Positions 48,335-62,254 of a DNA stretch of 64,000 nt are shown here, piece by piece. Within the stretch, counting starts at the first letter, position 1; the number at the start of each line of letters is the position of its first letter. Made by a program: the position numbers and the translations under genes. Under the pieces are notes generated by a model that worked only from the letters and a program-made list of their open reading frames with translations, was not told the origin of the DNA and did not search any database. The stretch lies in contig JAFAMD010000021.1 of NCBI GenBank assembly GCA_019233755.1, positions 1 through 64,000 on the forward strand, given 5' to 3'. This stretch comes from Acidobacteriaceae bacterium (GTDB lineage: Bacteria; Acidobacteriota; Terriglobia; Bryobacterales; Bryobacteraceae).

Positions 48335-49678
48335 ATGTCTTACAAAAGCCACAGGGTCCAATTGTGGACCTGGCTTATTCCTGTTCTGTATTCAGCACTC
48401 GCGATCGCAGCCGGCTTGAGTTTTCCAAGGCTTGAGCAGCACTTTTTGCCGCGCCTCCTGTCCTCGATAAGTGTTCCCGCCGCGATGGCGATCTACTCCT
48501 CTATTGCCTCGGGCATGATTGCTCTGACCGGCATCGTGTTTTCCTTGGCGTTTGTGATGGTCCAGTTCAGCGCAACCGCCTACTCGCCTCGTCTGGTGCT
48601 GTGGGTAGCGCGCGATCCGGTAATGTCCCACGCCCTAGGGGTTTTTACAGCGACCTTTCTTTACGCGCTCGCCGCGCTCGCATGGATAGATCGGGGCGGT
48701 TCCGGGAAGGTTCCACTTATTAGCGTTTGGGTATCTGTGGCTCTCGTTTTTGCAAGCGTGGCCATGTTCATTGCGCTGATTCGCGAAATCGGGTTACTTC
48801 AGATCAACCAGATGTTAATTTTTACTGGTAACCAAGGGCGGGGCATCATAAAGTCCATGTATCCCTCAATAGAAGCCACCGGTACGAATAGTTCGTATGA
48901 GTTTCGTAGGTTGCCTCGTACCCAGACGTTGAGACATAACGGCCCACCGCGGATCATACAGGCTGTTGACGTGAACGCCTTGGTGGATCTGGCCAAGGCA
49001 TCAGGCGGAGTCATTGAAATGGTTGCAGCGGTTGGCGACACCGCCATGGAGTTGACTCCCATTCTGCACGTTTTTGGTGCTCGTCGTGCCGTTGATGAAC
49101 GAGCTTTGAGTAAAGCGATTGAGGTCGGGGGAGAACGCACCTTCGAACAAGATCCTAAGTATGCAATCAGGCTGCTTGTTGATATTGCCATCAAGGCATT
49201 GTCGCCGGCTGTTAACGATCCTACAACGGCCGTTCAAGCGCTGGACCAAATCGAAGACCTGCTGCTCCGCCTCGGCCTCTGCCGATTGGAAATCGGCGCG
49301 TTTCGCGATGGCGATGGCGAACTAAGATTGATACTTCCCTTCCCCGCCTGGGAGGATTTCCTTCGGCTGGGCCTCGACGAAATTCGCTTCTGTGGCGCCG
49401 GCAGCATTCAAGTTATGCGGCGCATGAACGCGGTCGTCAGTGAACTCATCTCAGTGCTCCCTGAAGAACGTCATGCGGCGTTGAAGTGCTGGGAACAGCG
49501 GCTGCACGCTACAATCGGCAAATCTTTCACAGATCCGGAAGACAGGCGAGAGGCATTAGTGGAAGACCGGCAGGGGCTTGGCATACCGCGCCGTAGTTCT
49601 CCTACCGCCGCAGCAGAACATACAACGATGCCGCTGAACGAAAACCAGATCCGCCGCGCCATTCAACCGGATTCCTGA
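48335..49678 (+). CDS. DUF2254 polytopic membrane protein
   Basis: This 447-residue protein has about four membrane helices in the first 160 residues, including ALTGIVFSLAFVMVQFSATAYSPR, the most conserved DUF2254 block. A soluble C-terminal half follows (QAVDVNALVDLAKASGGVIEM, PKYAIRLLVDIAIKALSPAVNDPTTA). The function of the family is not established. It ends 77 bp inside the convergent P450 gene; the stop at 49678 is clear. Confidence 0.87.
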   Translation: MSYKSHRVQLWTWLIPVLYSALAIAAGLSFPRLEQHFLPRLLSSISVPAAMAIYSSIASGMIALTGIVFSLAFVMVQFSATAYSPRLVLWVARDPVMSHALGVFTATFLYALAALAWIDRGGSGKVPLISVWVSVALVFASVAMFIALIREIGLLQINQMLIFTGNQGRGIIKSMYPSIEATGTNSSYEFRRLPRTQTLRHNGPPRIIQAVDVNALVDLAKASGGVIEMVAAVGDTAMELTPILHVFGARRAVDERALSKAIEVGGERTFEQDPKYAIRLLVDIAIKALSPAVNDPTTAVQALDQIEDLLLRLGLCRLEIGAFRDGDGELRLILPFPAWEDFLRLGLDEIRFCGAGSIQVMRRMNAVVSELISVLPEERHAALKCWEQRLHATIGKSFTDPEDRREALVEDRQGLGIPRRSSPTAAAEHTTMPLNENQIRRAIQPDS

Positions 49679-50621
49679 TGTCTGCTGCCGCAATGTTCTC
49701 GACGAAGACACCGGTCGCCACTCCGGCGGCCATGCGGACCAGCGCTCCGCCCGCGCACGAATGCATGCCTGCCCCAAGCCCGACATGACCAGCAGCATTG
49801 CGCGTCAGATCGAGTCTATTGGGTTCCGGAAATTGCGTGGGGTCACGATTCGCCGAAGCCAACATCAGTCTGAGTCGTTCGCCTTCCGGAATGCGAATAC
49901 CGGCCAGCTCAATATCGACACCTGCCTGGCGGGAGAGTTTTTGCGCTACACCGGCGTACCGCAGCAACTCCTCAATGGCTTTCGGCAACAAATTCGCATC
50001 GGTGTCCAACCTTGCTAGTTCGGCAGGGTGGCGAAGTAAAGCGAGCCAGGCATTTGCCAGGAAACGGGGTAGCGTTTGCGAGAGCGCTACAAATGCGGGT
50101 CCGCTCATTGGTATGGGAGCGTTTTGAAAATATTGCGCTAGTTCAGCATTCGCGGCCTTTGCGTCGGATGTGCCGGCAGACACTTTGCGAGCAAGATCGC
50201 CAAGATGCTGTGCCTTTAGAGGATCGGCTCCAGTTACAAGTACGGCAATGGCCAGGCAGCCTGGTTCGGCAAGCTCATGAACGATGTCAACTGGTCGGTC
50301 GCGAGGGAGCTCGTCAACCAGCACGCACAGCAGGCGTCTGACTTCTGCCTGCCATGCCGACAGTTTCGCAGGCGAAAGTGCCGCAAGCGTCTCGGCGCGC
50401 ACACGCGCCTGAATGATCGGGTCCTCCCCGTGCGATCGTTTGTCGCTCCGCGGACCGGTGGGGCGCAGTCGCGGCTCTCTTAAAGCGGTACTTACGTCTG
50501 CATGCCGGCTGAGTACCCACGTATCCATCGCCGAATCGTAATAGGGGGCGCCCGGCGGCGGCGGCAATAGCGGGTCACCCTTCGTGCTTGATCTGGCTTG
50601 CATACATTTTGGGGAACTCAT
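49602..50621 (-). CDS. Cytochrome P450, last gene of the radical SAM operon
   Basis: This 339-residue haem monooxygenase is on the short side for a P450. The haem loop is GLGAGMHSCAGGALVRMA with axial Cys289; the usual Phe before GxG is Leu. The K-helix ExxR is IEELLRY. In the I helix the usual AG-acid-T reads ALSQT, so Thr is kept but the acid is Gln and the Gly is Leu. That may change proton delivery or mean a non-oxygenase role. The ATG at 50621 is four bases after the radical SAM stop, with GAGGGGGA upstream, so it belongs to that operon. Electron-transfer partners are not in the window. Confidence 0.87.
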   Translation of the reverse strand: MSSPKCMQARSSTKGDPLLPPPPGAPYYDSAMDTWVLSRHADVSTALREPRLRPTGPRSDKRSHGEDPIIQARVRAETLAALSPAKLSAWQAEVRRLLCVLVDELPRDRPVDIVHELAEPGCLAIAVLVTGADPLKAQHLGDLARKVSAGTSDAKAANAELAQYFQNAPIPMSGPAFVALSQTLPRFLANAWLALLRHPAELARLDTDANLLPKAIEELLRYAGVAQKLSRQAGVDIELAGIRIPEGERLRLMLASANRDPTQFPEPNRLDLTRNAAGHVGLGAGMHSCAGGALVRMAAGVATGVFVENIAAADIRNPVEWRGGSGFRSAASLYVLLRR

Positions 50622-50625
50622 GCGA

Positions 50626-51651
50626 TCAGTCCCCCTCAACAAGGGCATTCGCAAGTGACGTCCGCTCGCCTGTGGTCTTCTGACTCCAATTGAGCGAGCA
50701 AACACAGCGCTGACACACAGGATTGCTCGCGACATCCAGCATGCTGCGGAATTGCACCGCCTCGGGGCCGTTTAACACTTGCAGCAGACTATTTCTCTTG
50801 ACGGAGCCAATGGGGCGGTGAAAGAAACAGGGACGAAGCGTTCCGTCGGCTTCCACCACTGCCGATACCCAAGGTGCGTTGCAGCGAGGTGCGATGGGTC
50901 TCGAAATACCAAGATGTGCACGGTAATGATGCACAATCCGCTGGAGCTTTTCCCAGTTCTCGAGAATGAAAGCGCTGCCACTCCATTCGGCGACCAAAGC
51001 GTCGAACTCGTGTTCGAGAACGGCCGCCTGCGGCTCGCTCAGAGCGACTTGAGCCTGACGGTCCGGACCCCATCCCCCTGGTCTGTTGAATGCTTCAGAA
51101 GTGACGTCGGCAGCAAGAAAGGAGATTGATTTCAGACCCAACCGCCGCGCGGCCCTTGCAGTCTCCCTGACGCAGAAATAATTCTCCCGCTGTATCGTGC
51201 AGCGGGCTGAAATGGCAAAGCTGGGGTCAAGCTCGTATACAGCTCGAATGCCTCGCTCGAGCAGTGCAAAAGCTCCGGGAATGCGCCGAATCCGGTCGTG
51301 TACAGGTGGTGGGCCGTCGAGGGAAACAATCACGTCACTGACGTGACGAACAATCTGTTCAGCATTTCGCTCCAGCAGAAGGCCGGTACTGAGGATCGTG
51401 GTCCGAATCGAGCGAGAGCGAAGCAGTGAACAGAAACGAAACAGATCGGAGTGCATAAGCGGCTCTCCGCCTGACAGAACCACCCATTGGACCGACAGCT
51501 TTTCAATGTCGTCGAGGTATCTCTCCAGATCGCGCGTGCTGATTTCGCTTTTGTCGCTGTTCTTCCAGATGTCGCACATCAAGCAGCGGCAGTTGCACCG
51601 GCTATGCGGATAGAGGATAAGAATCGGCAATGAGTGAATAGTGGGATTCAC
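50626..51651 (-). CDS. Radical SAM protein with SPASM/twitch-like C-terminal cysteines
   Basis: This 341-residue radical SAM enzyme carries the cluster motif Cys19-x3-Cys23-x2-Cys26 (with an extra Cys21) near its N-terminus, then VVLSGGEPL and SLDGPP blocks. The C-terminal quarter has further cysteines (RCNAPWVS, RPCFFH, and CQRCVC near the end) that look like an auxiliary iron-sulfur site of the SPASM or twitch type. Such enzymes often modify peptides or small molecules. Unlike its operon neighbours it has no B12 domain. Its ATG overlaps the amidohydrolase stop by four bases. Confidence 0.88.
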   Translation of the reverse strand: MNPTIHSLPILILYPHSRCNCRCLMCDIWKNSDKSEISTRDLERYLDDIEKLSVQWVVLSGGEPLMHSDLFRFCSLLRSRSIRTTILSTGLLLERNAEQIVRHVSDVIVSLDGPPPVHDRIRRIPGAFALLERGIRAVYELDPSFAISARCTIQRENYFCVRETARAARRLGLKSISFLAADVTSEAFNRPGGWGPDRQAQVALSEPQAAVLEHEFDALVAEWSGSAFILENWEKLQRIVHHYRAHLGISRPIAPRCNAPWVSAVVEADGTLRPCFFHRPIGSVKRNSLLQVLNGPEAVQFRSMLDVASNPVCQRCVCSLNWSQKTTGERTSLANALVEGD

Positions 51652-52829
51652 GAAATTACCGCCTTTCCGGCCAGCCGCAAGTCGCCATCGAGTGCTTGCC
51701 TCGCCTGATCGATCAGGCCGGAGATATTGAACGGAGTCAGCCAGCGCCCGCGATCCTCAACCTCGATGACTTGATACGCGGAAAAGCTTGCAGCACGCAT
51801 GCGCTCCGTAATTGTTTCGGAAATCAGATCGATATGCCCGTTCACAATGACAAGCTGAGGCCGCAGGTCAAGTAGAGCTTCGGCTGGGGCTTGTCCGCGA
51901 TCGGGAACAACGAGCAAGTCCGCCGCGCCGCCGTTTCGGATACAACCCGCTGCCGATCCCAGGCACAATACGCGCGCTGCACCTGACGTGACCATGCCGT
52001 ACAGGCGAACGGGATCTATGACTTGACTTGCTCTCCGAAGTTCATCAGTGAGATCTCCTTCTGCAGTAAGAGCAGAGTCTGTCCCGAGCGCGATCGGCAC
52101 TCCCGAGGAAAAGGCTGCCTCCGACAACGTGCGCCCGAGCGTAAAATCGTTCGAACTTGGGCACCAGATCAAAGATGCTCCTCGCTTGCGAACGAGCATC
52201 AACTCCTCCCTCCGAAGCGCCACGCCGTGAACTACGACCGTTGAGCGCCCCAGCGCGGAAGCTGCATCGAGTTGATAAATTTCCCGTCTCGCATCCTCAT
52301 CCAGCCCTTCCGCTGCGTGAATGATGAACGGCGCGCCTGCTGGCCTTTGCCGATATCGATATTGCCAGTCATTGGAGAATCGCAGCGAGTGCGCCCAGGA
52401 ATAGTGCTTTACTACGCGGATGGGAAAGCCCTCATCGAATACGTCCGGATGGTAAGGGTTGTGCTGCGCGACTGTCGTGACGCCGGAAAGCAGGTTCTTC
52501 ATACCGCCCCAAAACAGCCGGACTCGCTTAGGAACCCCGAGGTGCTGCTTCACGGGCGCCTCGTCAGGCCGGTAGATGTCGTCTGCCCATGCGGTTGCGT
52601 TCGGATACGGTCCGCGGCCGAGCCGGGGAAACAGATTCAGCTCGAGGTGATCATGGGCATTGATGAGGCCGGGAAGAATCAGGAACCCACTCAGATCAAT
52701 CTCGCCCTCCGGGGATATCTCATGACGTGAAAAAAACACCTGGCCCTGGCGGACCAAGAGGTCCAGACGCGAAGTCCGGGTCGCGCTGGTCGCGACTCGT
52801 GCACCAGCCAGGATCACGGCTTGCTCCAT
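51648..52829 (-). CDS. Amidohydrolase-superfamily metal-dependent enzyme
   Basis: This 393-residue enzyme has the amidohydrolase TIM barrel. The first metal site is HDH (His59, Asp60, His61 in INAHDHLELN). Later ligands are the His in FIIHAAEG and VVVHGVAL and the Asp in ALGTDSALT. The layout is closest to deaminase/chlorohydrolase-like members, which act on C-N or C-Cl bonds of ring compounds. The ATG at 52829 overlaps the upstream methyltransferase stop by 16 bp; a TTG at 52841 is possible. In this operon it probably tailors or activates the pathway substrate. Confidence 0.87.
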   Translation of the reverse strand: MEQAVILAGARVATSATRTSRLDLLVRQGQVFFSRHEISPEGEIDLSGFLILPGLINAHDHLELNLFPRLGRGPYPNATAWADDIYRPDEAPVKQHLGVPKRVRLFWGGMKNLLSGVTTVAQHNPYHPDVFDEGFPIRVVKHYSWAHSLRFSNDWQYRYRQRPAGAPFIIHAAEGLDEDARREIYQLDAASALGRSTVVVHGVALRREELMLVRKRGASLIWCPSSNDFTLGRTLSEAAFSSGVPIALGTDSALTAEGDLTDELRRASQVIDPVRLYGMVTSGAARVLCLGSAAGCIRNGGAADLLVVPDRGQAPAEALLDLRPQLVIVNGHIDLISETITERMRAASFSAYQVIEVEDRGRWLTPFNISGLIDQARQALDGDLRLAGKAVIS

Positions 52830-53488
52830 AAACCAACCCAAATTGCGGGCACGGTGCTTAGATCCGAAATCAGATGCTGTTTACCGGCTCGTTCGAAGAT
52901 TGGCCGTTCCGCTTCACCAAAGTAGGCTTCCGACTGTGTCTGAAATTGAAGGCCGGCCGATGCGGCCGCCTCGCGAATCTGCGCGGCGGAATACACAAAG
53001 TGCTCCAGTTCGTACGCCGATGCGCCTACCTTGAAAGAGCGGTTCCAGCCCGCCGCTGCCGCCGATGGATGCAAGTCGCTGACAAGGACGCGTCCTCCAC
53101 GTGCGCAAACTCTGGCCATTTCGGCGAAGACACGGGGCAAATCGGGCATATATGCTGCGCCAAACGAGCAGAGTGTCAGGTCGGCAGCGTTATCCGGAAA
53201 AGGAAGGCTCTGAGCATCTCCAAGTACCAGCCGGCCGCGTAACTCCGGATGCTTTTCCGCTTTCGACAGCATCTCTGCGCACAGATCCAGGCCAAACACC
53301 GATGTGCCGCGCCTTCGAAAATGAAGCATCCAGCGCCCCGTGCCGCAGCCAACGTCAATGACTCCCAATGGTTCGGTTGAATCGAGCAGGCGACCTACTA
53401 CGCCGGCTTCCAGTGCAAGAAGAGGATTAGGCATCGTGTCGTAAACAGATGCCCAGAGGCGTTGCCCCGCTTCCCCGGAGACGCGCAT
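52814..53488 (-). CDS. Class I SAM methyltransferase (operon copy 3)
   Basis: This 224-residue methyltransferase has the Rossmann SAM motif VIDVGCGTGRWMLHF, then GLDLCAEML, ADLTLCSFGAAY and GGRVLVSDLHP, in the order expected for class I. The ATG at 53488 overlaps the stop of the preceding gene by one base (TGATG). It is the third methyltransferase of the operon in transcription order; its substrate is unknown. Confidence 0.87.
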   Translation of the reverse strand: MRVSGEAGQRLWASVYDTMPNPLLALEAGVVGRLLDSTEPLGVIDVGCGTGRWMLHFRRRGTSVFGLDLCAEMLSKAEKHPELRGRLVLGDAQSLPFPDNAADLTLCSFGAAYMPDLPRVFAEMARVCARGGRVLVSDLHPSAAAAGWNRSFKVGASAYELEHFVYSAAQIREAAASAGLQFQTQSEAYFGEAERPIFERAGKQHLISDLSTVPAIWVGLWSKP

Positions 53489-54954
53489 CACAGGCTCTCG
53501 AGGCGCGGCTTGCGCAACGCAACAAATCGCTGTGCGCATTTCAGTTCGAAGGGCGCACTGTAGAACCCCAGCGAGTAACGCCAACTGCTGAGCACGGTAA
53601 GCATGTGCCGGCCCCAGCGCGGAAGGTGAACATCCTGGATGGTAGGCCAGCGTGAGTTAATTACTAACTCGAAGTTATCGATGTGCCGTTTCAATCTTCT
53701 CGGCAACCAGGCAACGTTTGGGTCGCGACGTGTCGTGAAGTTATACCAACGGTCGGTGGCCCATTCTTCCGGCGTCCGCGGGAACTCGATCTTTCCTTCC
53801 ACTTTGCCGTACATCCCATCTGGATGAGGGGTTGGGATATAGTGCTGAACTATGATCTCAGCGTCGGGATTGATACGTTTGAGGCGCCGAATAAAGCGGA
53901 TGGTATCGCGTGTATCTTTCTCCGGGTTTTGCGGATTCCCGATGACGAACGAGAACTCTGGAATAATTCCGAAGCGGCGTATCTTCGCAGCAAGATCGAG
54001 CGTTTGCCCGGTCGTAACGTGCTTATTCATTTCTTCTAGCACCCAGTCGGACCCAGATTCGGCGCCGAAGAAGATCATCGCCGCGCCAGCCCGCCGCAAC
54101 AGCCGGAACGTCTCGTCAGAGTATCGAAGGGCCGAATCGATGCGTCCCTCAGCCCACCAGCGCAGATTCAACGGCGTCATCCGCTCTGCAAGATCCGCCG
54201 TGTGACTTTCATTCAAGAAGAAATTGTTGTCATAGAACTGCACCGCGTCTATTTGAAACCTCTGCTTCAGATAGCACAATACGGCGGCTGTCCGTTCCGC
54301 TGTTTCCGTCCGTTGCCGCCCCTGATAAATCGGGACGACACCGCAAAATTTGCAGCGAAACGGGCATCCGATGCTGGCCTGATGAACTGCCGTCCTGCGC
54401 CCAAGGAACGTTGGAAGAATGTACTTCTCCGCGTTGGGCAAACGATCATAGGGAAGCCACGGAAAGTCGTTCGGTGATCGGAGCGGCCGTTCTGCATTAT
54501 GCACGTGAAGGCCGAAATCGTCTTTATATGACAGCCCTCGGATGCCATTAAACTTGCGATTCCCGCGCAACGCCTCAATCAGTTCCAGGAACGTGTCTTC
54601 ACCCTGGCCGCGCACAACGAAATCGACGTAACGTGCGTTCAGCGCAGCATCGGTGTAGAGCGATGGGAAGTAACCGCCCCAAACGATCGGAATGGAAGGA
54701 TGCTTCGCACGGAACTCTCGACACAACGGTATTGCCGCCCTCATCTGGGGCCCAGGCATGACTGAGACGGCCAGCAACGTTGTTTCGCTCTCGCGAACGA
54801 TGCGATCGATGGTCATGGCCGGTTGCGGATCGGCGTTGCCGTCTACAATAGCGTACTCTTCCTTGCCGTCCAGGACGGCAGCCATTGATAGAACTGCGAG
54901 CGGGAAACGACGGTTCTTCGGCTTGGTGGATTGCGGATGAAGGAGAATGATCAT
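53488..54954 (-). CDS. B12-binding radical SAM protein (third type)
   Basis: This 488-residue protein has an N-terminal cobalamin-binding-like domain (about 1-135, with IVDGNADPQ and IVWGGYFPSLYTDAAL). The radical SAM domain has Cys197-x3-Cys201-x2-Cys204 (GCPFRCKFC), then YDNNFFLNE and FFGAESGSDWVLEEMNK. The C-terminal part has RWYNFTTRRD and FYSAPFELKC. It differs clearly from the two other pairs in the operon. The ATG at 54954 overlaps the upstream stop by four bases. Enzymes of this type catalyse methylations or rearrangements at unactivated carbons. Confidence 0.9.
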   Translation of the reverse strand: MIILLHPQSTKPKNRRFPLAVLSMAAVLDGKEEYAIVDGNADPQPAMTIDRIVRESETTLLAVSVMPGPQMRAAIPLCREFRAKHPSIPIVWGGYFPSLYTDAALNARYVDFVVRGQGEDTFLELIEALRGNRKFNGIRGLSYKDDFGLHVHNAERPLRSPNDFPWLPYDRLPNAEKYILPTFLGRRTAVHQASIGCPFRCKFCGVVPIYQGRQRTETAERTAAVLCYLKQRFQIDAVQFYDNNFFLNESHTADLAERMTPLNLRWWAEGRIDSALRYSDETFRLLRRAGAAMIFFGAESGSDWVLEEMNKHVTTGQTLDLAAKIRRFGIIPEFSFVIGNPQNPEKDTRDTIRFIRRLKRINPDAEIIVQHYIPTPHPDGMYGKVEGKIEFPRTPEEWATDRWYNFTTRRDPNVAWLPRRLKRHIDNFELVINSRWPTIQDVHLPRWGRHMLTVLSSWRYSLGFYSAPFELKCAQRFVALRKPRLESL

Positions 54955-55751
54955 CGATCTTGAAACTTCCCTACGAGAATCCAGAACCGCGAAGGCGGCC
55001 TGTTTCCTGAGAGCCAGGCCTTGTAAGGGCGAATGTGCCAGCGCAATCCATACCACGGACGATAGATCTGCCAATTCAAGCCTAGATTTCTGCTCAGTGT
55101 CCTGAGCGTCGGCTCATCGAGAAATTCAATGCTGGGAACTGCATCTGAGCGGAATCCATACCGCTTGAGAAAGTCAGCATGCCGTTCCTCTACCATTCGC
55201 TCCCCATGTTGTCTGCACTTATATACGGGAGAGTCCAGCACCACCAAGGCGCCACCAGGCCGAATGCAGCGCCGGGCTTCGAGCAGAGTCCGGTGATAAT
55301 CGGTTGAGTAGTGGAGCGACGAGTTATAGACCGCTAAATCGAAAATGCCGTCCGGAAAAGGCAGATGATCAAATTCCGCCTCCACCAGGGGAAATGTATT
55401 CGGGTAGTGACGAGCGGCGCGCAAGCCATCCCTCTCGTCATTGAATATGTCGAGAGCCACCGGCTGGTGACAACGCAGGGAAAGCCGGTAAGACATCCAG
55501 CAATTCCCGGCGCCAAGGTCAAGGATGTCCAGTGGCTTTTGCGTGCGCTGCTCGAAGCGTCGCAGTATTCTCCGTTCAAAATATCGATAGGTTCTTGCCC
55601 GCATCGCCCACATTGCAGCGTTGCGGCGCGACAGATCGAAATAGGGCAGTGCTCGATAAAAGGCCGTGTCGTCCGAACCGCGGCCCTCTGCGTAACGTAT
55701 GTGGCGGTACTCTTCCAGAAACTGCTGGCGCGCACTGCTTTCAACGGTCAT
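54951..55751 (-). CDS. Class I SAM methyltransferase (operon copy 2)
   Basis: This 266-residue methyltransferase has the SAM motif ILDLGAGNCWMSYRL (AGN in place of CGT), then ALDIFNDERDG, DLAVYNSSLHYS and PGGALVVLDSP. A cysteine pair in VYKCRQHG is not part of the core. The ATG at 55751 overlaps the preceding stop in ATGA. Its unusual loop I suggests a substrate distinct from its operon neighbours. Confidence 0.87.
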   Translation of the reverse strand: MTVESSARQQFLEEYRHIRYAEGRGSDDTAFYRALPYFDLSRRNAAMWAMRARTYRYFERRILRRFEQRTQKPLDILDLGAGNCWMSYRLSLRCHQPVALDIFNDERDGLRAARHYPNTFPLVEAEFDHLPFPDGIFDLAVYNSSLHYSTDYHRTLLEARRCIRPGGALVVLDSPVYKCRQHGERMVEERHADFLKRYGFRSDAVPSIEFLDEPTLRTLSRNLGLNWQIYRPWYGLRWHIRPYKAWLSGNRPPSRFWILVGKFQDR

Positions 55752-56494
55752 AAATGCCTGAAGATAAACAGACGGTGATCCGCAAGTGCTCGCAGAACCG
55801 GCCAATGCGCTATGCATGCATCCACTGCCGAAAACCCGCGAATCGTCCCGTCGTTGAATTCATTTATGTATGAAGGCGGCACACAGAGCCCGATACCAGA
55901 CCAGCCAATAAGTTTGAAATGGCACCCGAAAGCCTGCTCCACTTGCCTGCGGGATGGGTAACGCACATCGGCGCCTATGGACGAGCGAGTCTTGCCGCGC
56001 GTGAAGCGGCGAAATGCCTTTCTAGGATTCCCGCGAATGGCGAAATAGAACATTTCCCAGATGCAAGCTCGACCCAGTAAGCAGATTCCAACGCATCCCC
56101 CAAGTCGAACGCGCTGTGCCAATGCCGAAGCGACATCTTCCAGCCGCGCAACGCAGTTCAAAGCGCCGAAGTTTGATATAGCTCCATCAAATTCCTCTCT
56201 CAGGTCCGCGATGGATTCGATTGCGAGTCGATGCGCATTCACTCCACGGTTCCGCGCGACTCCGACCATCGCGGCAGACGCATCGATGCCGTAGACTTCA
56301 ACGCCTCGCGACTTAAAGTGGAGCGCGTCCTCGCCCGTTCCACAACCCAGATCGAGCATCCGGTCGCCCGGTCTGAACATCGCATCCAGTCGCCGCCATA
56401 CTGCCAGCCGCTGGCTGATACCGATGGGGGTTCTTGTCCAGAGCGCATCGTATTGTGCCGCGAGTTTGTCGAATGGGCTGCCCGCAATGGTCAT
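55748..56494 (-). CDS. Class I SAM methyltransferase (operon copy 1)
   Basis: This 248-residue methyltransferase opens FDKLAAQYDALW and has the canonical MLDLGCGTGEDALHFKSRG, YGIDASAAMVGVAR and later ALAQRVRLGGCVGICLLGR. The ATG at 56494 follows the radical SAM stop by eight bases. Its substrate is unknown. Confidence 0.88.
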   Translation of the reverse strand: MTIAGSPFDKLAAQYDALWTRTPIGISQRLAVWRRLDAMFRPGDRMLDLGCGTGEDALHFKSRGVEVYGIDASAAMVGVARNRGVNAHRLAIESIADLREEFDGAISNFGALNCVARLEDVASALAQRVRLGGCVGICLLGRACIWEMFYFAIRGNPRKAFRRFTRGKTRSSIGADVRYPSRRQVEQAFGCHFKLIGWSGIGLCVPPSYINEFNDGTIRGFSAVDACIAHWPVLRALADHRLFIFRHL

Positions 56495-56502
56495 GGTTAA
56501 CC

Positions 56503-57849
56503 TCAGGCTTCCACCTCATGGCTGCTGGCTTGAAGACCCGCGCGCGCGGCAAGAATTCTTGCGCGATCAGGGTGTGGCGACGTTTCACTTCGCAAAAGCT
56601 CATCCGCGTACTGATAGAAGCGCCTTGAATGCCTCCCTTTGATGCGCAGGTCCCGGTCGGTGCTATTACTCCAGCCGGCAATAGTTACCAGTCGCGACGC
56701 GACCCGATCAAAGTAGGGGGTGCCCTTAATGGGGTATGAAACGGTTGTAAAGCAGACGTCGGGCCGGCACCGTTTAACATGATCCACGGTTGCTTCGATA
56801 TCTTCAATCTCTTCGCCTTCGTAACCCCACATCAGAAACATGCCGCTTTCTATGCCGCTTTTCTTGCACAGATGCACGGCGTTGCGAACCTGCTCTACGG
56901 TTACCCCTCTTTGCATGGCATCGAGCACGCGCTGTGATCCACTCTCCGATCCAATCCATACGCGGAAGCACCGAAGCTCAGCCAGCGTCTGTACCACCCG
57001 CTCATTCACGCGATCCGCGCGCGTGATGCACTCAAATGGGGTTTGAAGACCTCGGCGTTTCATCTCGGCTGCGAAGTCGAACAGCCATCCATGGTGGATT
57101 GTGAATACGTCGTCCGCCAGCCACAGCATCTCCGGGCTATAGCGCTGCAAGATCCATTCGATCTCGTCCACCACCGCGGTCGGTGACCGCCGGCGATGAG
57201 TTGTTCCGAACACCGCGTGACTGCACCAGTTACAGCGATACGGGCAGCCGCGCGCGGTGATGAGCGACACGGAGCCCCGGCTGTGGTTCCGGCGCCAGAC
57301 GTCGAGGTATCGGTGAATGTCGACCCGCTCGCGGTCCGGCCAAGGCTGGCCATCCAAGTCCTTAATGAGCGGCGCGGCTGCCGTTCGCACGAAGGATCCG
57401 TCTTCCGCACGGAAAGCGATGCCGGCAGTCTCCGGCCATTTCCCAGGATCCAGTTTCGTACCGAGCAGAGTTTCGAGCGTAAGCTCGCCCTCTCCCGCAA
57501 CAACTATGGCTGCGCCTGAATCGAGATACTGCTCCGCATAGTTGGCCGGCTCAGGTCCCCCGACGATTACTGTCCATCCTGCCTCGCGTGCCCACTGGAT
57601 AATTTCCAGAACGTTGAGACGCGTCATCAAATTGCCGTAGATGCCGATAGCTCCAGGAGGGCCATTCTGCAAGAGGGAAAGCAATTCCTGTTTCGATCCG
57701 AATGTAGAGTCATAAATGTCTACCTCGAATCCCTTCTTCCTCAGATGCGACGAGAGATAAAGAACTCCCAGCGGAACGTAGGGCTTCATGATCTGCTGTT
57801 CTTTGGCATCCTCGAACAGGAAATAGCCATGTGTTAACAGCAGTCTCAT
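56503..57849 (-). CDS. B12-binding radical SAM protein (pair B, second copy)
   Basis: This 448-residue protein begins MRLLLTHGYFLFEDAKEQQ, with a B12-binding-like domain up to about 130 and a radical SAM motif Cys202-x3-Cys206-x2-Cys209 (GCPYRCNWCS). WLADDVFTIHHGWLF and RVWIGSESGSQRVLDAMQRG match the adjacent gene closely. The start is the ATG at 57849, overlapping the upstream stop by one base (TGATG). It is a tandem paralogue of the 57849-59237 gene. Confidence 0.92.
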   Translation of the reverse strand: MRLLLTHGYFLFEDAKEQQIMKPYVPLGVLYLSSHLRKKGFEVDIYDSTFGSKQELLSLLQNGPPGAIGIYGNLMTRLNVLEIIQWAREAGWTVIVGGPEPANYAEQYLDSGAAIVVAGEGELTLETLLGTKLDPGKWPETAGIAFRAEDGSFVRTAAAPLIKDLDGQPWPDRERVDIHRYLDVWRRNHSRGSVSLITARGCPYRCNWCSHAVFGTTHRRRSPTAVVDEIEWILQRYSPEMLWLADDVFTIHHGWLFDFAAEMKRRGLQTPFECITRADRVNERVVQTLAELRCFRVWIGSESGSQRVLDAMQRGVTVEQVRNAVHLCKKSGIESGMFLMWGYEGEEIEDIEATVDHVKRCRPDVCFTTVSYPIKGTPYFDRVASRLVTIAGWSNSTDRDLRIKGRHSRRFYQYADELLRSETSPHPDRARILAARAGLQASSHEVEA

Positions 57850-59237
57850 CAGGCCACTCCAATCGCAGAAACCGCACCGTTCCTGAGCTCATACACTCTG
57901 CTCCAGGCGTTCTGGATTGCTGTTTTCTTCTCAGGCTCGCGGACCTCCAGATGCAAAGCGTCAGCGAGCGCGCGGTACATGTCGCTCGAGTATGCTCCCC
58001 CGAACATCATGGCCAGATCACCGCTATCCGACCAGTTGGTCTTCTTACCCATTTGCGATGAAACAAGCTGGTAAAACTTGGTTCCTGGCAACGGATACGA
58101 GACCGAAATGCCGATATCATGCGGCTTTGTTTCACGGACCATGCGAACGGTCGCCTCTATGTCTTCCCACGCTTCGCTCGGGTATCCGAACTGCAGGAAC
58201 CATCCGGCCCGAATGCCGTGCCGGGCAAGGTTGGCCCGCGCCTGGTAGATGTGCTCCACGCGGGTGCCTTTGTCCATGGCGTCCAGCACGCGTTGTGAAC
58301 CGGATTCTGCACCCATCCATATCTCGCAACATCCAGCTCGTTTGAGCGCGGCTACGGTATCTCGTGTCATCAGGTCGCAGCGCGATTGCATCTTGAATGG
58401 GATCTGTGCTCCAAGCGTTTCGACGGCAGTTGAGAATTCAGCGGTCCAGCGTCCCGACAATGCAAAAATATCGTCAGCGAACCAGATATGGTCCGGGCGA
58501 TACGTTCGCTTCAGATGGAGCATCTCCTCGGCTACTCGCCGCGGCGAACGTACATGATAGTTGTTTCCGTAGATAGGCTTTGCGCACCAGTTACACCTGT
58601 AGGGGCAACCGCGGCTGGAAACCATATTCAGAGAGAAGAAACCATGTTGAGCCAGCCATTTTTCCCGGTACGGATGCATATCGATCAAGTCCCAGGCGGG
58701 CAACGGAAGCACGTCCAGGTCGCTCCGCACCTTACGGCGGGCGTTGTATTGGACATGACCCGTTCCTGGACATCGATATGCGAGCCCCGCGATGCTCTCT
58801 GGCGGGTGCTGTGCTGACAGCTCGCGAAGCGTGTCCTCCACTTCTCCTACGAGGACACAATCGAAACCGGCGTCCAGATATTCCTTAACGTGATCAGATG
58901 CGTCAGATCCGTGCGCCGCGGTTCGGCATCCAAGCCTCTTCGCCAATTGTGCCGTCCAGAACGCCAATTCCCGGTTGCGGACAAGACACATCTTTGTCAA
59001 AAAATTAAAGTCGTCTTCGCAAACTACAACAAGACGTGGAGCAAGCACCTGAAGATATCTTTCCAGCTTTTGCTCGGGATCATTAAGGGTGACATCACAT
59101 ACCGAAACGCTAAACGCTGATTCACGAAGTACTGCCGCGCCAAGCAGTGTTTGCAGCGGCGGATACGGCTGCATCTTCTGCGCCTGTTTGCGGTCATAGA
59201 ACAGATGATTGCTGTGGGTGAGCAGTACGTCGATCAT
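57849..59237 (-). CDS. B12-binding radical SAM protein (pair B, first copy)
   Basis: This 462-residue paralogue of the next gene begins MIDVLLTHSNHLFYDRKQ. It has the radical SAM motif Cys211-x3-Cys215-x2-Cys218 (GCPYRCNWCAK) and IWMGAESGSQRVLDAMDKG. The N-terminal B12-binding-like domain carries extra cysteines (near 47, 73, 84 and 104). The ATG at 59237 lies nine bases from the upstream stop. Similarity to its neighbour is clear in both domains, so a tandem duplication is likely. Confidence 0.92.
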   Translation of the reverse strand: MIDVLLTHSNHLFYDRKQAQKMQPYPPLQTLLGAAVLRESAFSVSVCDVTLNDPEQKLERYLQVLAPRLVVVCEDDFNFLTKMCLVRNRELAFWTAQLAKRLGCRTAAHGSDASDHVKEYLDAGFDCVLVGEVEDTLRELSAQHPPESIAGLAYRCPGTGHVQYNARRKVRSDLDVLPLPAWDLIDMHPYREKWLAQHGFFSLNMVSSRGCPYRCNWCAKPIYGNNYHVRSPRRVAEEMLHLKRTYRPDHIWFADDIFALSGRWTAEFSTAVETLGAQIPFKMQSRCDLMTRDTVAALKRAGCCEIWMGAESGSQRVLDAMDKGTRVEHIYQARANLARHGIRAGWFLQFGYPSEAWEDIEATVRMVRETKPHDIGISVSYPLPGTKFYQLVSSQMGKKTNWSDSGDLAMMFGGAYSSDMYRALADALHLEVREPEKKTAIQNAWSRVYELRNGAVSAIGVA

Positions 59238-59246
59238 CGCCGCTTT

Positions 59247-60758
59247 CTAAACTTCCTTGAGTTGACGGCCGAGAGGTTCTCCGGTCAAGAGCGAACGGCG
59301 CATCACGAGCCATTGTTGAGCCATGGAGAGCCACAGCTCGAACGGTAGATTGAAAAAGTAATGCTTCAGCCGCCAATTCAGCGGCCTTCGCAGCAGCCGA
59401 ATCCCCATTCTTACCGTATTCGAGCCTGACCTCTTTGATTTCTTCGTCAGCTGATTGGAAAGCAGGAAGTAAGACATGCTGCGCTGCAGAACTCTGCCCG
59501 ATTCAGCACTCAACCATGGCAACTCCACTTGTCCCAGGCCGACCGATGCCCATTCTTCGAGCGACTGCGGCTCCCGCAGCCCCGCCTCGCGCAGTTCTTG
59601 CCATATTGGGATTCCCGGATACGGAGTGAACAGATTGGGCGAGAACGTCACATTGTCATATAAGTCTGCAAGTTCGCCCATAACGCGAAGTGTCTGTTTC
59701 CGATCCGCCTCCTCTTCACCTGGATAGCCAAAAATCAGGTTGTAAGTGATCCGTATCCCCGCCTTGGCGCATTTCCGTGCCGCTTCGAACATATCTTCGA
59801 TGTGCTGATGACGCTTGTTCATTTTGCGCAAGACCTCCGGAGACGCGGATTCGGTGCCGAAGCCGATATGACTCACGCCGCTTGCCGCAAGAAGACAAGC
59901 GTCCTCATCACTGAGCCGGCATAGAAGGTCTGTCGAGGCCTGGAACGTCCAGCGGAAACGTACACCGCTTTCGAGGAAACCGAGCGCGATGGCAACGGCG
60001 CGGCGCGTGTCCACCAGAAAATTTGAATCAACAAGCGCCACTTCTTCCAACTGAAGGCGCTTCACCAGTCCTACGACATCCTCCACTACGCCCTTCACCT
60101 CCAGAGGATTGAACCTTCGGTTGTAGAAGACCATGTCTGTGCAGTAATTGCACGCATAGGGACAGCCAATGCTCGTCGCATAGGGCAGTTTTCTGCCTCC
60201 GGTCAGGCGTCGATACGCCTCGAAGTCTACGAGGTCGTACGCCGGAGCAGGAAGTGTATTCAGTGGAGATGCCGGCCGGTCCTGATTGGAGAAGATCCTC
60301 CCGTCCCGCTTGAACCAACAACCGGCGACCATGTCCAGACCGGCTCCTGCTTCCTGGCGCTGAAGAATCTCGGTTAATGTCTTCTCCCCCTGGTGGCGCA
60401 CCACAATATCGACGAAGCCTTCGCGAAGAGTCTCGCCTGTGAGGAGTGTTGGATGCCATCCGCCGTAGATGATCGGAAGCTCCGGCCTGATTTGCCGAGC
60501 CACCTGACTGGCGGCAATCGCATCGCGGATCATCGGCCCAGTCAGGAGCGAAATCCCAAACGCGAAACAGTCCGCAATTTCGCAAGCGACTGCATTCAGG
60601 AACTTCGGGTCTATCGCTCCATCTACGATCACCGGACGGAATCCGGCAGCCCGCAGCGACGAGGCAAGGCTCAGCAGCCCAAGCGGCGGACCGAAGACTT
60701 TTCCTTCGTAGGGTGGTGAAAACAGCACTACCTTGCGATCTGCCGAACCAGTCAGCAC
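59247..60758 (-). CDS. B12-binding radical SAM protein (pair A, second copy)
   Basis: From a GTG at 60758 the product has 503 residues (VLTGSADRKVVLFSPPYEG). The start is chosen because AGAGG precedes it and it overlaps the upstream stop as GTGCTGA; the longer open frame has no plausible ATG. The B12-binding domain has VDGAIDPKF, SLLTGPMIRD and YGGWHPTLLTGETL. The radical SAM motif is Cys199-x3-Cys203-x2-Cys206 (GCPYACNYC), then FGTESASPEVL and FTPYPGIPIW. A basic C-terminal extension with LRRPLNWRLKHYFF may bind membrane or nucleic acid. It is a clear paralogue of 60752-62254. Confidence 0.92.
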   Translation of the reverse strand: MLTGSADRKVVLFSPPYEGKVFGPPLGLLSLASSLRAAGFRPVIVDGAIDPKFLNAVACEIADCFAFGISLLTGPMIRDAIAASQVARQIRPELPIIYGGWHPTLLTGETLREGFVDIVVRHQGEKTLTEILQRQEAGAGLDMVAGCWFKRDGRIFSNQDRPASPLNTLPAPAYDLVDFEAYRRLTGGRKLPYATSIGCPYACNYCTDMVFYNRRFNPLEVKGVVEDVVGLVKRLQLEEVALVDSNFLVDTRRAVAIALGFLESGVRFRWTFQASTDLLCRLSDEDACLLAASGVSHIGFGTESASPEVLRKMNKRHQHIEDMFEAARKCAKAGIRITYNLIFGYPGEEEADRKQTLRVMGELADLYDNVTFSPNLFTPYPGIPIWQELREAGLREPQSLEEWASVGLGQVELPWLSAESGRVLQRSMSYFLLSNQLTKKSKRSGSNTVRMGIRLLRRPLNWRLKHYFFNLPFELWLSMAQQWLVMRRSLLTGEPLGRQLKEV

Positions 60759-62254
60759 GAGACAACCTCTGCTGAGAGTTTTTGCGCATCGACCTTGGGC
60801 TTCAAAGGCGGAAACCACTTGTTCGCTTTGTTCTTGAGCCACAACTCGACGGGCGCGGCATACACGTCATGATCGAGCCTCCATCGCGCGGGAATGCTGA
60901 TAGCCCGATGGACTAGCCGGTTTAATGGATGCTTTCGCTGTACGCCTATCGGAACCCGGTTGAAAGCAACGCGCATGTACTCACGCATGGTTTGAACGCG
61001 CTTGTGCTTTTTTTCCTTGAGCCATGGAAGAACCGTATAGCGCGGGAAGAAATCAGCCCATCCTTCGAACGTCTTTGGCACATCAATTCCAAGCTCGAAG
61101 GCACGCTTCATGATCGGCGCGCCGGGGTATGGCGTGAAGATGTTCGTCCAGAATTCCGCCAGCGGATAACGGCGGCAAACATTCATGACGAGTCTTATGG
61201 ACTCGCGCCTCTCCTTCTCCGACTCCCCCGGAAATCCGAAAATGATGTTGAAGGACGGTCGAATGCCCGCCTGGCTCAGCATGTCCGCGGCCTGATAGAT
61301 GGTCTCGAGCTTTTGAAAATCCTTGTTCATCAGGTGCAGTACTTTCGGCGATCCTGAGTCCGCACCTTGTGCAACCTGGGATAGTCCCGCCCGTCGCAAC
61401 AGCTTTAGCTCTTCTATAGTCAGCCGCGTGACGAGATTGGTTGACGCCTGAATGCTCCAGTCGAACTCCACCCCGCGGCGCACCAGGCCCTCCGCTATCG
61501 CCACCGCGCGATCACGATCCACCAGAAAGTTGTCATCTACAACCCAAAGGAGCTTCAGGCGATACCTGGTGACCAGATCGGTAACTTCTTCCACTACCTG
61601 ATCAGCTTCGAGCGCGTTCCATTTGCGCCCGTAGAGCCCGTCGTTGGTGCAGTAAGCGCAGTTGAACGGGCACGCAAGGCTTGACGTGTACATGGCCCAG
61701 CGCCGGCCACATATGCGTTCGTAGGCGTCGAAGTCGGCCAGATGATACGCCTTAGGCGGCAGCTCACGAATCGGCTTGAGTGGCCGGATAGCATTGAAAA
61801 CTAGGCGTCCGTCTTCCTTGTACCCAACACCTGCGATTCCCTTCAGGGGCTCGCCCGCTTCGATGTGTTGAACAATTTCGAGCAGCGCATCTTCCCCTTG
61901 TCCCTTGACAACAACGTCAACGTTGGGACAAGCGAGGGTCTGGTCCGGAAGCAGAGAAGGATGCCATCCACCAAGGATGACCGGCTTTTCAGGATAGAGT
62001 TCTTTCGCAGCTTTCGCTATCTGTGCGGTCTCGCGAATCATCGGCCCGGTCACCAGAGAGACTGCGACACACAATGAATCCCTCAACTCTTCGAGTACTC
62101 GCTCTTGAAAGCGAGGCGTAATCGTCGAATCGACGATAGTCACTTGATATCCAGCCCTCAATAGGGGCGTCGAAACGGCCAGAATGCCCAGTGGGGCCGT
62201 GGCTTCCTGGCTTGAGAATGCGGGAAAGAAAAAGAGAACCTTTTTGGATGACAT
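60752..62254 (-). CDS. B12-binding radical SAM protein (pair A, first copy, operon leader)
   Basis: This 500-residue protein is first in the operon. The N-terminal B12-binding-like domain has IVDSTITPRF, SLVTGPMIRET and LGGWHPSLLPDQTL, nearly matching the next gene. The radical SAM motif is Cys195-x3-Cys199-x2-Cys202 (ACPFNCAYC), then VDDNFLVDRDRAVAIAEGLV and FTPYPGAPIM. The C-terminus is basic (KEKKHKRVQTMREYMR, RVPIGVQRKHPLNRL) and may bind a polyanion or membrane. The start is the ATG at 62254; the 475 bp upstream hold the operon promoter. Confidence 0.92.
   Translation of the reverse strand: MSSKKVLFFFPAFSSQEATAPLGILAVSTPLLRAGYQVTIVDSTITPRFQERVLEELRDSLCVAVSLVTGPMIRETAQIAKAAKELYPEKPVILGGWHPSLLPDQTLACPNVDVVVKGQGEDALLEIVQHIEAGEPLKGIAGVGYKEDGRLVFNAIRPLKPIRELPPKAYHLADFDAYERICGRRWAMYTSSLACPFNCAYCTNDGLYGRKWNALEADQVVEEVTDLVTRYRLKLLWVVDDNFLVDRDRAVAIAEGLVRRGVEFDWSIQASTNLVTRLTIEELKLLRRAGLSQVAQGADSGSPKVLHLMNKDFQKLETIYQAADMLSQAGIRPSFNIIFGFPGESEKERRESIRLVMNVCRRYPLAEFWTNIFTPYPGAPIMKRAFELGIDVPKTFEGWADFFPRYTVLPWLKEKKHKRVQTMREYMRVAFNRVPIGVQRKHPLNRLVHRAISIPARWRLDHDVYAAPVELWLKNKANKWFPPLKPKVDAQKLSAEVVSC

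Follow-up and report, generated by a model that had tools for sequence, protein, structure and literature searches.

The 64,000-nucleotide stretch of contig JAFAMD010000021.1 from an Acidobacteriaceae bacterium (assembly GCA_019233755.1), referred to as a whole as the window, carries on its minus strand, from position 62254 down to position 49602, a tightly packed operon of eleven genes, which we designate A to K in the order of transcription and which encodes radical S-adenosylmethionine (SAM) proteins, most with a B12-binding domain, together with methyltransferases, an amidohydrolase and a cytochrome P450. This operon is real, conserved and more than a chance arrangement: genes A to J keep their order on one strand in 43 of the 50 loci in which four or more of them are present, and 17 of these 43 loci hold all ten. 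It is apparently an undescribed multi-radical-SAM operon of Acidobacteriota; a literature search, for which most subscription journals were out of reach, found no paper about it, and none of the eleven proteins reaches a curated NCBIfam cut-off, which agrees with an earlier reading of the bare sequence (the original prediction) that the pathway had not been described. We propose, with a probability of roughly 40%, that the pathway tailors a sugar- or lipid-linked unit from which a surface glycan or glycolipid is built.

Organization of the operon

A check of the open reading frames (ORFs) of the window gave the following genes, with the Pfam domains and scores of those outside the B12-type group.

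gene A, 60752 to 62254, minus strand, B12-binding radical SAM protein, 500 residues
gene B, 59247 to 60758, minus strand, B12-binding radical SAM protein, 503 residues, GTG start
gene C, 57849 to 59237, minus strand, radical SAM protein, 462 residues, N-terminal Rossmann-like domain
gene D, 56503 to 57849, minus strand, B12-binding radical SAM protein, 448 residues
gene E, 55748 to 56494, minus strand, SAM-dependent methyltransferase, 248 residues (Methyltransf_25, 44.7 bits)
gene F, 54951 to 55751, minus strand, SAM-dependent methyltransferase, 266 residues (Methyltransf_11, 56.9 bits)
gene G, 53488 to 54954, minus strand, B12-binding radical SAM protein, 488 residues
gene H, 52814 to 53488, minus strand, SAM-dependent methyltransferase, 224 residues (Methyltransf_11, 79.4 bits)
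gene I, 51648 to 52829, minus strand, amidohydrolase, 393 residues (Amidohydro_1, 60.9 bits)
gene J, 50626 to 51651, minus strand, radical SAM/SPASM protein, 341 residues, GTG start (Radical_SAM, 53.5 bits; SPASM, 45.2 bits)
gene K, 49602 to 50621, minus strand, short cytochrome P450, 339 residues (p450, 45.1 bits against a cut-off of 22.8)

The original prediction spoke of ten genes, and the number is corrected to eleven because it had itself listed 5 + 3 + 1 + 1 + 1 = 11 proteins and ten junctions. From A to K the junctions are GTGCTGA, a gap of 9 bp, TGATG, a gap of 8 bp, ATGA, ATGA, TGATG, a 16-bp overlap, GTGA and a gap of 4 bp; nine of the ten are as first described, but the I/J junction reads GTGA and not ATGA. 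The assignments of the three methyltransferases (E, F and H), the sixth radical SAM protein (J), the amidohydrolase (I) and the P450 (K) were borne out by their Pfam domains. From the spacing and order of the genes we infer that A to K form one transcription unit. A scan with a consensus promoter gave 2 promoter-like matches, against 6.3 given by shuffled sequences, and weighs neither way on separate promoters. Within the window the operon is flanked by genes for an FkbM methyltransferase and a DUF2254 membrane protein, and the DUF2254 gene (48335-49678, plus strand) shares 77 bp with the 3' end of K.

Distribution and gene order among Acidobacteriota

Among 60 relatives, A has a close orthologue, 75-87% identical, in 11 genomes other than its own (in two of them on a cut contig) and a 49% identical one in a twelfth. 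In a sample of the phylum, A was matched in 27 of 396 genomes at E<=1e-70, with 17 (the window genome included) at 61% identity or more, and in a sample of the order it was matched in 37 of 250 genomes, again including the window genome, at E<=1e-120. A pattern-based scan of named genomes, in which the best 80 of 142 relatives were kept, returned 78 loci, of which 46 were titled Acidobacteriota (L084-L128 and L130, L denoting a locus and G, below, a genome), the other loci returned being at most 30% identical. The named carriers include Edaphobacter aggregans (L103), E. modestus, E. lichenicola, Terriglobus albidus, Granulicella sp. dw_53 and the strains KBS 83 and KBS 96. This pathway, with its four or five B12-type radical enzymes, occurs in many Acidobacteria of soil, cultured members of Edaphobacter, Terriglobus and Granulicella among them; pure cultures and complete genomes of carriers exist. 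On the contig of L129, several distant B12-type radical SAM proteins, 26-29% identical to A or D, stand in a row.

The gene order was counted in a census of 57 non-redundant loci with A at 55% identity or more, loci of the same genome having been merged beforehand; the 7 loci with fewer than four operon genes were excluded from the count, and one of the seven breaks in order (L022) rests on a call of J that is probably another radical SAM gene. The original prediction of one conserved unit therefore holds, the genes not having been found unlinked in relatives. Over 40 loci the pairwise identities of the A, C, D and G proteins are correlated (r between 0.74 and 0.91), as would be expected of a unit inherited together. 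The most often absent gene is B, which alone is lacking from 11 otherwise complete runs, and I is absent between H and J in L024, L031 and L098. More distant Acidobacteriota contain partial or rearranged gene sets (L080, L082 and L029). One genome with 7% contamination (L033, G004) has a second, divergent C-D-F-E set, 50-57% identical to that of the window, on another contig, its main operon being without C to F.

B12-type radical SAM proteins

Pfam recognized a Radical_SAM domain in six proteins, namely A (85.8 bits), B (67.5), C (63.6), D (80.3), G (49.3) and J, and the CxxxCxxC iron-sulfur cysteines are at least 97% conserved in each of the six in alignments of 32-57 members per family (A, 57, where they are C195, C199 and C202; B, 39; C, 51; D, 50; G, 47). 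Five B12-binding radical SAM proteins had been predicted. For A (64.8 bits), B (56.2), D (52.4) and G (50.4), the B12-binding domain scored over the Pfam cut-off of 32.1 bits, but the match of C, at 24.7 bits, is under it. The structure model of C (mean pLDDT 83.0) has a Rossmann-like N-terminal part and a radical SAM core. Foldseek ranked AprD4 with paromamine first for it (E 2.2e-20, TMq 0.70), MgmA almost level with AprD4 (E 2.7e-20, TMq 0.60), and TsrM, OxsB, TokK and CysS after these two. These matches argue that C has the architecture of a B12-type radical SAM protein. AprD4 is independent of cobalamin, and the predicted binding of cobalamin by C appears doubtful.

In a comparison of the profile of A with the PDB, TokK was closest and AprD4 next, and OxsB, CysS and TsrM were also matched. 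None of the named equivalogs (BchE, HpnJ, HpnR, TIGR04072, AprD4 and ScmE) was reached at its curated NCBIfam cut-off, with A scoring best against BchE (138 bits, cut-off 481) and C against HpnJ (121 bits, cut-off 578). A and B are 40% identical and C and D 34%, and a maximum-likelihood tree of 67 sequences paired A with B and C with D, each pair forming a clade, and gave G a clade of its own. On this tree B, C, D and G each lie on one side of a well-supported branch and A needs two changes, one distant sequence (L080, 37%) falling near G; the splits between A/B, C, D and G predate the families that carry the operon. The same distant locus (L080:3007-5715, G443) contains a single open frame of 902 residues that covers the G region together with the greater part of an A region and could be a fusion, a frameshift or chance.

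The original prediction had regarded a lipid substrate as being as plausible as a natural product, and the operon might modify membrane lipids, for example by methylating or bridging the chains of branched glycerol dialkyl glycerol tetraethers (brGDGTs) or related chains. Against the lipid model TIGR04072 (cut-off 360) the score of A was 112 bits, and E. aggregans, which has the operon, is reported in the excerpts of PMC8941075 and PMC10087280 used here to contain brGDGTs at low oxygen. Solibacter usitatus, however, makes diverse brGDGTs according to the same part of PMC10087280 and has no locus among the 78 returned by the non-exhaustive, pattern-based scan (best 80 of 142), and the closest solved sequence of J and the first fold match of C are both sugar enzymes. 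We regard modification of membrane lipids as unlikely. Hopanoid methylation was considered as a candidate in its own right and rejected, because the portion of PMC5462960 available to us gives only tetrafunctionalised bacteriohopanepolyols (BHPs) for E. aggregans and, among the acidobacteria examined there, methylated BHPs and hpnP/hpnR only for Koribacter.

Methyltransferase H, amidohydrolase I and their fusion

In 23 sequences H and I are one ORF of 626-734 residues, as in L103:19041-21041. The count was drawn from 25 I-bearing ORFs of more than 560 residues, of which 23 match H and I and two (L088 and L097) match I only. Where the genus is named, the hosts of the fused form are Edaphobacter, Terriglobus and Granulicella; in the window, H and I are the separate genes that share the 16-bp overlap. 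The fusion suggests that H and I act together.

Residues H59, H61, H171, E174, H201 and D251 of I, which make up its HxH, HxxE, H and D motifs, are invariant in all 36 aligned sequences; they are the presumed metal-binding and catalytic residues. These 36 are from the 39 sequences found, with the partial L021 and L125, and also L114, excluded and long ORFs trimmed to the last 400 codons. Foldseek, searched with the structure model of I (mean pLDDT 93.9), gave 4dyk, 4gbd, 3lnp and 4dzh first, three of the four being titled adenosine deaminase in the PDB, and then 4f0s and 4f0r, titled adenosine deaminase homologues. A profile search of the PDB gave 4dyk, 4gbd, 3lnp, 4dzh and 4f0r first, the last named as a deaminase of methylthioadenosine (MTA) and S-adenosylhomocysteine (SAH). 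I is under the curated cut-offs for PRK09045 (62.8 against 540), 5'-deoxyadenosine deaminase (37.7 against 522) and MTA/SAH deaminase (27.3 against 779). The protein keeps the aminohydrolase residues, and by profile and predicted fold its closest group is the adenosine/MTA/SAH deaminases.

Genes J and K

The closest solved sequence to J is cytosylglucuronate decarboxylase, a sugar-nucleoside enzyme (E about 1e-15), and among the NCBIfam models J scores highest with ScmE, from the SynChlorMet cassette (76 bits, cut-off 400). Besides the iron-sulfur cysteines, five more cysteines of J are at least 97% conserved in the family alignment.

The original prediction placed the P450 in the pathway with the other enzymes, but K lies near A in only 3 of the 57 loci and is an accessory, not a core, member of the operon. 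A K-like gene adjoins a displaced B in L083. The p450 domain of K was aligned by Pfam only over residues 211-308; Cys289 (heme) and E218 and R221 (ExxR) are kept in three aligned members, and residues 135-338 align to residues 200-412 of TamI, the N-terminal part of K being about 65 residues shorter. The best NCBIfam match of K is a P450-derived glycosyltransferase activator (98.8 bits, under the cut-off of 343). At E<=1e-40, a threshold chosen after the matches had been inspected, a K-like gene, often unlinked, was found in 9 of 26 operon-bearing genomes versus 1 of 46 without a close A, and at the searched threshold of E<=1e-25 in 10 of 26 versus 4 of 46. Since these counts ignore kinship, the co-occurrence of K-like genes with the operon is no more than suggestive.

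Genomic neighbourhood

In several Bryobacteraceae, the operon adjoins a Wzx/Wzy-type capsule locus (Wzi, Wza, Wzz, Wzx, two GT4 proteins and a sugar transferase) and a gene for an HprK-like kinase with an NTP_transf_5 protein. Neighbours, defined as genes within 10 kb of an operon gene, were counted in 41 loci with a total length of at least 15 kb: the kinase was present in 17, NTP_transf_5 in 13 and either of the two in 19, and a GT87/beta-propeller protein and capsule genes were present in 12 each. Eighteen 20-kb control stretches, placed at round coordinates away from the operon in 11 operon-bearing Acidobacteriaceae-type genomes, contained one Wzi and neither the kinase (0 of 18), NTP_transf_5 (0 of 18) nor GT87 (0 of 18). 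At least one of the kinase, NTP_transf_5, GT87, capsule or GT4 genes is a neighbour in 30 of the 41 loci versus 1 of the 18 controls. A Pfam scan of the flanks of Acidobacteriaceae-type loci found Hpr_kinase_C 8 times, NTP_transf_5 4 times and GT87 4 times among 107 proteins, versus at most once each among 107 control proteins. For the flanks, 110 of 136 eligible ORFs from 23 loci were taken at random and 107 used, three ORFs starting at base 3 being excluded; for the controls, 110 of 270 ORFs were drawn and 107 used, the last three of the draw being excluded. G057, from one more family, has a GT87 gene adjoining A and has Wzy_C and GT4 genes adjoining G and D, and G247 has Wzy_C and GT4 genes upstream of A (loci L028, L029 and L076). 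The original prediction suggested a lipid or a natural product; the genes around the operon lean rather towards a surface glycan or glycolipid.

Several observations weigh against a role in surface glycans or glycolipids. The count of 30 in 41 loci leans upward because the families were picked for their recurrence, and its comparison with the controls is biased by controls from Acidobacteriaceae-type genomes only; the other 11 of the 41 loci have no such glycan-type neighbour. None of the 25 flank families shown for Acidobacteriaceae-type loci is a capsule family, so that the link in these loci is to the kinase, NTP_transf_5 and GT87 and not to capsule genes. The window genome has its HprK-like kinase, NTP_transf_5 and capsule genes on contig C55 (L046 and L047) and the operon on C10, and G016 (L050) has kinase and capsule genes with 0 matches to A, which indicates that the modules are separable; because those genes lie on another contig, the glycan link is invisible from the window alone. 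At the level of single proteins, MgmA, which methylates a glutamine of a protein, is nearly as good a match to C as AprD4 is, and triazine hydrolases and isocytosine deaminase match the fold of I nearly as well as the nucleoside deaminases do. The similarities to AprD4, the decarboxylase and TIGR04515 are remote, and the sugar is a presumed substrate.

A different explanation is that a primary metabolite is turned by the operon into a small-molecule natural product that diffuses, and that the nearby glycan genes are mere neighbours on a genomic island. B12 radical SAM enzymes, methyltransferases, an amidohydrolase and a P450 are a typical tailoring mix, and this explanation would be consistent with the patchy distribution in the order sample and with the loci that have no glycan-type neighbour. 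However, no scaffold enzyme, carrier protein or small-molecule exporter was found in the 32 annotated of the 45 most recurrent neighbour families (six of the 32 were without a Pfam match), and none of the eleven operon proteins is a backbone-making enzyme, as the original prediction had noted. The absence of a recurrent precursor-like small ORF and the recurrence of the kinase, NTP_transf_5 and GT87 above control also speak against a diffusible product, which we consider somewhat improbable.

The small-ORF search covered ORFs encoding 22-150 residues outside larger ORFs at a BLAST threshold of E<=1e-4, which very short peptides could escape. It found nine families of 3-5 loci, none of which resembles a precursor: the largest (5 loci) is antisense to E, and the others are a cupredoxin-like family (4 loci), a cytochrome c, a family that looks DksA/TraR-like by eye, a 140-residue protein beside the kinase and matches between close relatives. 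This result bears on the idea that the operon is a ribosomal peptide pathway with an unrecognized precursor, in which a peptide would be the substrate of J, a SPASM protein, and of the HprK and NTP_transf_5 proteins, in the manner of phosphoglycosylated lasso peptides. The ScmE match of J, a weak match of the kinase to ScmC and the near-tie of C with MgmA are consistent with a peptide substrate, and an HprK-like kinase and a nucleotidyltransferase tailor lasso peptides according to the excerpt of PMC8498205 used here. Besides the missing precursor, however, no lasso B or C, YcaO or PqqD-like protein was found among the eleven proteins or the annotated neighbour examples, and we consider a peptide pathway very unlikely.

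A capsule glycosyltransferase, GT_a, was tried as an operon-specific neighbour and rejected, as it occurs in 142 of 396 phylum genomes (E<=1e-70) versus 27 of 396 for A. The conserved protein of about 140 residues directly adjoins the HprK-like kinase in L073:18886-19311, L074:19471-19872 and L109:355-798. Genes for a small cytochrome c, for cupredoxin-like proteins and for two-component systems turn up repeatedly in the vicinity of the operon (L071, L072, L124 and L014).

Proposed role of the operon

For the preferred tailoring of a surface glycan or glycolipid building block, what we observe directly is the gene content and its conserved order, the conservation of catalytic cysteines and metal ligands, the fusion of H with I and the neighbours that recur; each reaction, the substrate and the destination are proposals. 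The proteins A, B, D and G would methylate or rearrange unreactive carbons, and roles of B12 radical SAM enzymes beyond methylation have been reviewed (PMC13331322, in the part considered here). C might be a dehydratase of the kind of the sugar enzyme AprD4, or else a methylase; J could contribute another radical reaction, and E, F and H would put methyl groups on additional positions. As the original prediction supposed, one substrate might be decorated many times in this way. I would deaminate adenine nucleosides, either clearing the SAH and 5'-deoxyadenosine made by nine SAM-using enzymes, as its fold and the number of SAM users suggest, or deaminating an adenine-bearing intermediate. Activation and transfer of the product may then fall to the HprK-like kinase, the NTP_transf_5 protein and glycosyltransferases, which are linked to the operon in relatives and lie elsewhere in the window genome.

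A more specific version, in which a radical-SAM assembly line would make a multiply C-methylated or deoxygenated monomer of a capsule or glycolipid while the methyltransferase-deaminase fusion destroys its own SAH and 5'-deoxyadenosine waste, is speculative and, taken as a whole, improbable. If the glycan reading is true, radical C-methylation would enter the chemistry of surface polysaccharides, and if the H-I fusion clears SAM by-products, it would show how a radical SAM pathway can itself relieve product inhibition.

Comparison with known systems

Bottromycin-type clusters contain several B12 radical SAM methylases, an amidohydrolase, a P450 and an O-methyltransferase. The operon resembles them in this mix of tailoring enzymes but has no YcaO, all eleven proteins being assigned, and no recurrent precursor-like ORF. 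Wzx/Wzy capsule loci with an HprK-related kinase and NTP_transf_5 adjoin the operon in several Bryobacteraceae, but they also exist without it, as in L050, and lie on another contig in the window genome. AprD4, a radical SAM 1,2-diol dehydratase acting on paromamine, shares with C a Rossmann-like domain and a radical SAM core and is its first fold match, whereas the two are only about 20% identical and MgmA is nearly tied. The adenosine/MTA/SAH deaminases (4dyk, 4gbd, 4dzh and 4f0r) are the best profile and fold matches of I, which keeps their HxH, HxxE, H and D residues; I differs in being only 16-20% identical to them, in scoring under the curated cut-offs, in being nearly as close to triazine hydrolases and in its fusion to a methyltransferase in 23 relatives. 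The cobalamin-dependent radical SAM enzymes TokK, CysS, TsrM, OxsB and BchE share with A, B, D and G the B12-binding and radical SAM domains and the CxxxCxxC motif; the operon proteins are far under the NCBIfam cut-offs and, in contrast to these enzymes, occur as four or five paralogues within one operon.

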